Shown piece after piece: positions 31,230 to 50,500 of a DNA stretch of 64,000 bases (within the stretch, counting starts at the first letter, position 1; every line of letters starts with the position of its first letter). Both the position numbers and the translations under genes were made by a program. Location of the stretch: contig NZ_KI913949.1 in the NCBI RefSeq assembly GCF_000332095.2, forward strand, positions 4,363,048 through 4,427,047. The letters are read 5' to 3'. The notes under the pieces were generated by a model, which ran no database searches, had not been told where the DNA came from, and worked only from the letters and a program-made list of their open reading frames with translations. Source of the DNA: Leptolyngbya sp. PCC 6406. Lineage in GTDB: Bacteria > Cyanobacteriota > Cyanobacteriia > Phormidesmidales > Phormidesmidaceae.

Positions 31230-32069
31230 ATGCTCAAGGCGCTAATTTTCGATGTGGATGGCACCCTAGCGGAGACAGAACGGGACGGCCATCGCGTCGC
31301 CTTTAACGACACCTTTCGCGCTGCCGGATTGGACTGGCACTGGTCCGTAGAGACCTACGGCTCACTCATCAATGTGGCTGGAGGCAAGGAACGCATTCGC
31401 CACTACATCAACACCGTTCAGCCCCCGATTCCCCCCGACACCGATCTGGATATCCTGATTGCAGAGCTGCACCAGGCCAAAACCCACCGCTACCGTACCC
31501 TACTCCAAACCAACGGGATTGCCCTGCGTCCCGGTGTGCGGCGGTTGATTACCGCTGCCCGATCAGCAGGCGTGTCCCTCGCCATCGCCACCACTAGCCA
31601 CCTCGATAATGCGATCGCACTTCTAGAGGCCACCCTCGGCCCCGACACCCTCACCTGGTTTGAGGTCATCGCCGCCGGAGACATCGTCCCCCACAAAAAA
31701 CCCGCCCCCGACATCTACTACTACGTCCTGGAAAAACTAGCCCTCCCCCCACAGCATTGCCTCGTGATTGAAGACAGTCACCAAGGACTCACCGCCGCCA
31801 CCACCGCCGGACTCTGCACCGTCATCACCGTCAACGCCTACACCCGCCACCACGATTTTGGACCCGCATCCCTGGTGCTGAGTCATCTCGGGGAACCGGA
31901 TCAGCCCTGGGAGATTTTGCAGGGTCCGGGAATAGGCCATGGCCCCTCTGAGCCAGTCTTTGACCCTCCCATCTTCACCCTTGCCACCGCCAACACCCTA
32001 CTGGACTCTGGTTACTCAGGGTATCAACTCAAAGCGGGACAAATCTCTTGGGGAGGAGTTAGGAGTTAG
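31230..32069 (+). CDS. HAD-family hydrolase (CbbY/phosphatase-like)
   Basis: The protein is likely a sugar-phosphate phosphatase. The 279-aa product has HAD motif I (LIFDVDGTLAETERDGHRVA), motif II in LAIATTSH, the Lys of motif III in VPHKKPAPDIYYYVLEKL, and VIEDSHQGLTAATTAGL (motif IV). CbbY-type proteins remove inhibitory sugar phosphates of Rubisco, a plausible role. ATG 31230 is chosen; the frame continues upstream without homology. Its last 16 residues derive from repeat D; without it the protein would end SGYSKS. Confidence 0.88.
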   Translation: MLKALIFDVDGTLAETERDGHRVAFNDTFRAAGLDWHWSVETYGSLINVAGGKERIRHYINTVQPPIPPDTDLDILIAELHQAKTHRYRTLLQTNGIALRPGVRRLITAARSAGVSLAIATTSHLDNAIALLEATLGPDTLTWFEVIAAGDIVPHKKPAPDIYYYVLEKLALPPQHCLVIEDSHQGLTAATTAGLCTVITVNAYTRHHDFGPASLVLSHLGEPDQPWEILQGPGIGHGPSEPVFDPPIFTLATANTLLDSGYSGYQLKAGQISWGGVRS

Positions 32070-32149
32070 GAGCCAGAATCTAGGAGAGTACTGGATTCTG
32101 ACTCCTGAATTCTTCGGAACCAATATTATCTCGGCTTACGTTGATACCC
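32019..32149. repeat. MITE-like element D, copy 1 (131 bp) with 8-bp target duplication
   Basis: The ends are GGGTATCAAC and GTTGATACCC. The interior carries an imperfect hairpin around AGGAGCCAGAATC and GGATTCTGACTCCT. GTTACTCA flanks it directly on both sides (32011-32018 and 32150-32157). It matches 50120-50250 over its whole length. It has inserted in the 3' end of the HAD gene. Confidence 0.92.
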
Positions 32150-32194
32150 GTTACTCAAAATCATGACGATTTTGAGTGGGTCTATTTTTGGAGG

Positions 32195-32252
32195 CAGAGC
32201 ATCCCCAGACAGAGCATCCCCAGGGAGCGCATCCCCAGGCAGAGCCTGGAGA
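32195..32252 (+). repeat. Short tandem repeat, about 15-bp unit
   Basis: GCAGAGCATCCCCAG and close variants occur four times in a row between the HAD gene and the convergent DUF3782-like gene. Confidence 0.6.
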
Positions 32253-32282
32253 CCAGACCATCAAATCCGCTCCGCCCATGGG

Positions 32283-50108: not shown

Positions 50109-50119
50109 GGACGTGGAAT

Positions 50120-50250
50120 GGGTATCAACTCAAAGCGGGACAAATCTCTGGGGGAGGAGTTAGGAGTTAGGAGCCAGAATCTAGGAGAGTACTGGATTCT
50201 GACTCCTGAATTCCTCGGAACCAATATTGTCTCGGCTTACGTTAATACCC
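50120..50250. repeat. MITE-like element D, copy 2 (131 bp)
   Basis: It has the same length and termini as the copy at 32019-32149 (GGGTATCAAC at the left, GTTAATACCC at the right). It is flanked by CGTGGAAT and GGTGGAAT, an 8-bp target duplication with one mismatch. It begins 11 bases after the cyclase stop. Confidence 0.9.
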
Positions 50251-50284
50251 GGTGGAATTACCCCCCCCTACCTGTCACCCTCTG

Positions 50285-50388
50285 CATTGGGCGCGGAAAC
50301 CGCGCCCCTACCGGGAATTCCGCATTGGGCACAGGCACCACGCCCCTACGGCAACATCCTGCATTGGGCGCGGAAACCGCGCCCCTAC
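50285..50388. repeat. GGGCGCGG hairpin repeat cluster (inverted)
   Basis: Two good copies (50285-50311 and 50362-50388) and one diverged copy (about 50322-50349) of the family at 20416 and 37772, here in reverse orientation. Confidence 0.85.
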
Positions 50389-50436
50389 GGGTAATTCAAT
50401 TCAAAATTCAAAATTCAAAACTTTCTGTCCACCCCA

Positions 50437-50500
50437 CCCCATCACCCCATCACCCCATCACCCCATCACCCCATCACCCCATCACCCCATCACCCCATCA
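50437..50500. repeat. Octamer tandem repeat CCCCATCA x8
   Basis: Eight exact consecutive units without spacers. It lies directly downstream of the NTF2-like gene. The same unit, inverted, occurs four times at 37663-37694. Confidence 0.95.

Follow-up and report, generated by a model that had tools for sequence, protein, structure and literature searches.

The closest described systems are a cyanobacterial MITE and a group of transposase families. The MITE, Nezha, resides in Anabaena/Nostoc. Its movement by ISNpu3-like elements has been proposed (PMC3049150). Nezha resembles the family presented below in being a short non-coding cyanobacterial MITE tied to an insertion sequence (IS) through common ends, and it differs in its named partner, an ISNpu3-like element rather than the DUF6399 IS proposed here. 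The transposase families are those grouped as p-MULT, which comprise IS256, ISH6, ISLre2/TnGBS, ISKra4/ISMich2/ISAzba1 and the Mycoplasma ICEs. They generate 8–9-bp duplications and have 18–39-bp ends with a terminal C. Their transposases carry a D-D-E triad, a C/D(2)H motif 11–19 residues past the second D, and a helical insert of 99–138 residues between the second D and the E (PMC3942029).

The window analysed in this study is a 64,000-nucleotide stretch of the Leptolyngbya sp. PCC 6406 genome (NZ_KI913949.1, positions 4,363,048 to 4,427,047). A MITE copy, designated D, occupies positions 32019–32149 on the forward strand, with the left end GGGTATCAACTCAAAGCGGGACAAA and the right end TCTCGGCTTACGTTGATACCC. 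An earlier note, made from the sequence alone, had described a 131-bp MITE-like element with a clear 8-bp target duplication; the length of 131 bp proved exact, and the octamer GTTACTCA is identical on both sides (32011–32018 and 32150–32157). The core of D consists of imperfect AGGAGTT/CTCCTGA heptamers. Its hairpin folding was stronger than that of 200 of 200 shuffles (z = −4.0), as expected for an inverted-repeat element, and no Rfam family matched at D. Short GCATCCCCAG-type repeats lie immediately 3′ of the element (32185–32260). D is a real, well-defined and ordinary MITE; what the analysis adds is that its parent can be placed in a protein family whose function had not been known.

The second copy listed in the same note was found where expected, at 50120–50250 on the forward strand. 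It is also 131 bp long and 97% identical to D, and its flanks, CGTGGAAT (50112–50119) and GGTGGAAT (50251–50258), match at seven of eight positions. It is adjoined by GCATTGGGCGCGGAAACCGCGCCCCTAC-type repeats and then a CATCACCC tandem run (50270–50500).

The second copy was thus real, but the count of two fell far short of the family. The genome searched comprised 5,776,957 bases (5.78 Mb) in 3 contigs. BLAST with D returned 46 matches, mostly full-length copies. A left-end pattern allowing up to 3 mismatches hit 67 sites, compared with 0 for the reversed control pattern, and the right-end pattern hit 71. Altogether, at least one MITE end was present at 80 sites (69 plus 11 further right-end sites). 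Both ends were recognised in 62 of the 69, the left end being missed in one and the right end in six; a degenerate left end was present at four of the 11 extra sites, giving elements of 121–145 bp. Another three of these 11 (L239, L240 and L241) do not resemble MITE copies, and the copy number is therefore given as about 77. Four left ends lie on one strand inside 8 kb (G000:C1:128968–136518). Plasmid and phage collections contained no match to the MITE sequence.

Flanking sequences of the 62 two-ended copies demonstrated a target duplication of fixed length. The flanks matched at 8/8 positions in 17 copies, 7/8 in five, 6/8 in four and fewer in 36, while mismatched left/right flank pairs used as a control matched at 8/8 in 2 of 3782 cases, both stemming from two copies that share one duplication sequence by chance. 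The excess was seen at length 8 only, and the duplications had no common consensus. Among the 36 copies with fewer than 6/8 matches, a 7–9-bp repeat adjoined the ends in just four; together, these two counts indicate that loss of the duplication is common. Recombination between copies was considered as the cause of the missing duplications and rejected, as swapped flank pairs were limited to the duplication sequence common to two copies and to a small number of cross matches at 7/8. Near-consensus copies often have no duplication either, and flank swapping or shifted repeats fail to account for most of them. Most copies (44 of 62) fall on a length ladder of 124, 131 and 138 bp, which reflects cores that have gained or lost units of 7 bp. 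Short, non-coding, bounded by terminal inverted repeats and dispersed in many copies with 8-bp duplications, D belongs to a MITE family.

The copies are of varied age. Their identity to the consensus ranged from 79% to 99%, barring one copy of 81 bp (L060), which has an internal deletion, agrees fully with the consensus in its retained part and has an 8/8 duplication. Consensus identity was slightly higher in copies with at least 7/8 matching flanks than in the others (0.933 vs. 0.915, p = 0.08), and the family moved over a long period, with no single fresh burst. The recent mobility inferred earlier from two copies of equal length with duplications therefore needs qualification. The duplication of D is perfect; however, D shares 94.7% identity with the consensus and 97.7% with the copy closest to it, the flanks of 36 of the 62 copies match at fewer than six of eight bases, and the genome has no intact gene for the parent transposase.

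When the flanks of each copy were joined, 20 of 62 junctions fell within open frames of at least 100 aa, compared with 87% of 3000 random positions in a crude test that used no gene caller and took the window alone as control. Such strong depletion from coding sequence, together with the strong hairpin (z = −4.0), would also suit a structured regulatory or terminator element of the REP/BIME type, kept by selection rather than left as a transposon fossil. We regard this explanation as quite unlikely. Transposition is marked by just such precise 8-bp duplications and ends like those of an IS, selection against insertions would be expected to keep copies out of genes, and Rfam offered no match. 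Furthermore, the heptamer numbers of the two hairpin arms were uncorrelated (r = −0.18), for which reason no selected structure is claimed. Single copies may have a structural or regulatory role, but none is needed, and no function of the MITE beyond mobility was found in this analysis.

The transposon reading of the repeats gained a candidate parent from related genomes. A search of 39 genomes (the window's own included) with D returned 25-bp left-end matches at contig ends in one relative (G006) and a single match in another (G005, Leptolyngbya sp. PCC 7375). The left-end pattern was present in 9 of 63 genomes of the taxonomic family, again including the window's own, and the MITE and the G006 copies agree at 24 of 25 bases of the left end. 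One left-end site (L128) leads into a truncated helix-turn-helix frame, and a search with the L128 fragment retrieved full-length elements in G005. The IS with the same ends and 8-bp duplications that had been suggested as a check thus exists in relatives, with related ends. Full-length copies measure 1.74–1.76 kb and have cognate ends and 8-bp duplications; the commonest G005 element is 1756 bp long, with perfect duplications. The sole long frame between the IS ends carries the PF19936 domain, which is DUF6399, a 'Family of unknown function', in Pfam and likewise in RefSeq, and public plasmid records name relatives 'DUF6399 domain-containing protein'.

Forty full-length DUF6399 frames represented 33 distinct insertions, of which 23 had 8/8 duplications; 13 of these 23 are copies of one G005 element, and the end finder ranks pairs by end similarity plus duplication and hence leans towards duplications, with end positions identical in all those G005 copies. 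One of the 23, on a gammaproteobacterial plasmid, has other ends and an 8-bp duplication. DUF6399 was detected in 31 of 388 sampled cyanobacterial genomes (29 over the family cut-off) and in 0 of 14 control genomes.

The MITE shares its ends with this autonomous IS of equal duplication length. In a 24-base comparison with one IS copy (L156), the left ends agreed at 21 and the right ends at 20 positions, while shuffles reached 15 at the 99.9th percentile and 18 at maximum. The match is good, if imperfect, and the IS found does not contain the MITE core as an internal segment. Pairing like with like scored higher than mirror pairing in five of seven elements for the right end (one tie, one lower) and in four of seven for the left end (three lower); given these mixed scores, a clear signal of orientation is restricted to the elements most similar to the MITE, L156 and L229 among them.

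On these grounds, we consider it highly probable that D is a non-autonomous MITE moved in trans by the DUF6399 transposase of a full-length IS that has since decayed, and that the altered tail of the HAD gene arose by its insertion. D would carry the two ends of the IS family and no gene. The transposase, provided in trans from a full-length IS, is predicted from sequence to recognise the ends GGGTATCAAC...GCGGGAC / GTC(C/T)CGGCTTA...GTTGATACCC and would insert the element into target DNA cleaved with a stagger of 8 bp, repair of which would leave the 8-bp duplication. The autonomous IS of the window's genome would later have decayed to a relic, with about 77 orphan copies staying behind, mostly in intergenic positions. 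D itself would have inserted two codons before the HAD stop, creating a new tail of 16 residues and a new stop codon.

Another possible source of mobility is a known family with 8–9-bp duplications in the same genome, of IS256 or ISKra4 type, in which case the likeness to DUF6399 IS ends would reflect shared ancestry only. In the genome, an IS256-type transposase is represented by a single open frame of 432 aa and ISKra4 by one weak match, and these families too make 8–9-bp duplications (PMC3942029). However, the duplication at the genome's IS256-type element is 9 bp long, and its ends, GAGCTATGCTC..., agree with the MITE at 8 of 24 bases. Of 32 cyanobacterial IS256 and ISKra4 loci inspected, 10 had ends that could be located, with 7–11 of 24 bases like the MITE, against up to 21 and 20 of 24 for the DUF6399 IS. 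This makes movement by IS256-type or ISKra4-type elements very unlikely.

Under the preferred DUF6399 parentage, the MITEs of the window's genome look orphaned. No DUF6399 domain or N-terminal match was found in this genome, and no DUF6399 gene in three other genomes of the genus (61–87% complete). An unpaired right end (L239, G000:C1 at about 4,438,740–4,438,840) belongs to a relic of ~100 bp that covers transposase residues about 122–161 in two frames (translated BLAST, E = 4e-5, small set). These residues, which include GADETFFGLP, the motif with the first predicted catalytic D, are fused to the right end ...GGCTCGGCTTAAGTTGATGCCC, and the relic indicates that the parent IS was once present in the genome. 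Another site (L240, G000:C2:107220–107240, on a 196-kb contig) has an IS-like right end and a flanking long direct repeat, TTTTACCCAACTTCTT, with no recognisable left end. IS4-type transposase frames (273 aa and 417 aa) occur genome-wide in many equal-scoring copies; other IS families thus appear to have been active recently, unlike the DUF6399 family.

Homologous MITEs with a similar core were detected in four other genomes (G019, G050, G058 and G064), which belong to two genera (g7 and g12); together with the window's genome, the MITE family spans three genera. The core scored z = 4.5–7.8 in 10 of 12 homologous loci, two being without the right end, and two of the homologous MITEs (L127 and L136) have 8/8 duplications. 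In a further genome (G076), the inverted ends of the IS itself enclose a 274-bp element, apparently a simple deletion derivative.

The DUF6399 protein has several traits of a transposase. Residues D165, D219, D239, H242 and E471 (L154-frame numbering) were invariant in 17 distinct proteins, and D165, D219 and E471 are the putative catalytic residues. The invariant D239-x-F-H242, separated from D219 by 19 residues, corresponds to D(2)H. The DUF6399 IS also agrees with p-MULT elements (PMC3942029) in the length of its duplications and in the length and terminal C of its ends; its protein differs in having 251 residues between D219 and E471, well beyond the insert of 99–138 given there. A structure model built from seven alignment rows was poor (pLDDT 49.4), with its more confident part between the second D and the E being helical. 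In profile–profile comparison, transposases of IS256 and ISKra4 lined up with DUF6399 at the second D, the D(2)H motif and the E, without significance: hhalign E-values were 0.0025 (11.8%) with 17 sequences and 0.023 (2.1%) with 23 for the IS256 set, 0.066 and 0.024 for the ISKra4 set, and 0.68 and 0.4 for the IS4 control.

No NCBIfam model of the p-MULT families reached its cut-off on DUF6399; sub-threshold matches include IS21, ISLre2 and the Mycoplasma ICE transposase. The ISKra4 family (NF033572) shares GGG ends, 8–9-bp duplications and frequent occurrence in cyanobacteria with the DUF6399 IS. In contrast, it was absent from the NCBIfam matches listed up to E = 10, where HMMER filters may hide very weak ones, and its ends agree at only 7–9 of 24 bases at loci with ends found. 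A PDB sequence search yielded nothing relevant, and no DUF6399 relatives were found in viral contigs. Judged by these motifs, the DUF6399 protein would work like a Mutator-type DDE transposase, and it is not filed here as a member of that group. We lean towards a broader interpretation, namely that DUF6399 represents a new deep p-MULT branch with an enlarged helical insert and serves as transposase in an IS family not yet described. This IS family would be present in cyanobacteria and in one gammaproteobacterium or more, and would have given rise to MITEs that have homologous palindromic cores in three genera of a single cyanobacterial family, the MITEs outliving the parent in the window's species. 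Among the literature matches listed, there was no paper on DUF6399 and no description of the MITE/IS family, and the IS may be named in ISfinder; passages of PMC4666352 (triplex repeats) and PMC10969869 (a MITE review) contain nothing bearing on the D family. The analysis makes a family of unknown function a testable transposase, supplies ends and a duplication length for annotating DUF6399 IS, and explains a large repeat family of the window's genome.

D also altered the gene whose end it overlaps. The HAD-family hydrolase gene (31230–32069, forward strand) encodes 279 residues, with PF00702 at residues 3–194, and its last 16 codons and stop lie inside the MITE. As the earlier note had proposed, the C-terminus was rewritten: with D removed and one repeat dropped, the frame reads ...TANTLLDSGYSKS and stops after SGYSKS, while with D present it reads ...SGYSGYQLKAGQISWGGVRS up to a TAG within D, 16 codons of the left end of D thereby replacing two residues. 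The comparison with HAD relatives suggested at that time included 29 proteins, and the 16-residue tail was found in 0 of 28 readable C-termini, the frame of one relative being left out; the same-genus protein of G003, for example, ends in ...ATAERLLDSNQ. These relatives were at most 71% identical, and no empty site for D was found at the nucleotide level. We found nothing to favour an ancestral longer C-terminus overlapped by the element by accident, and this is next to impossible given the 28 relatives without it, the presence elsewhere of the repeat whose left end encodes the 16-residue stretch, and the normal stop that joined flanks give two codons further on.

D exemplifies how a MITE may outlive its autonomous partner and modify gene ends, here by adding 16 residues to a hydrolase. 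Since the altered tail lies outside the domain, its effect is probably small, perhaps neutral, and the change looks incidental. A position in a gene tail is not unusual for the family, as 12 of the 20 in-frame junctions precede the stop codon of the longest frame of this kind by 5–42 codons. Peptides similar to the 16-residue tail occur in short open frames at other repeat copies. The L239 relic, for its part, sits at the 3′ end of an EAL-like frame (labelled by eye), another gene tail altered by the family.
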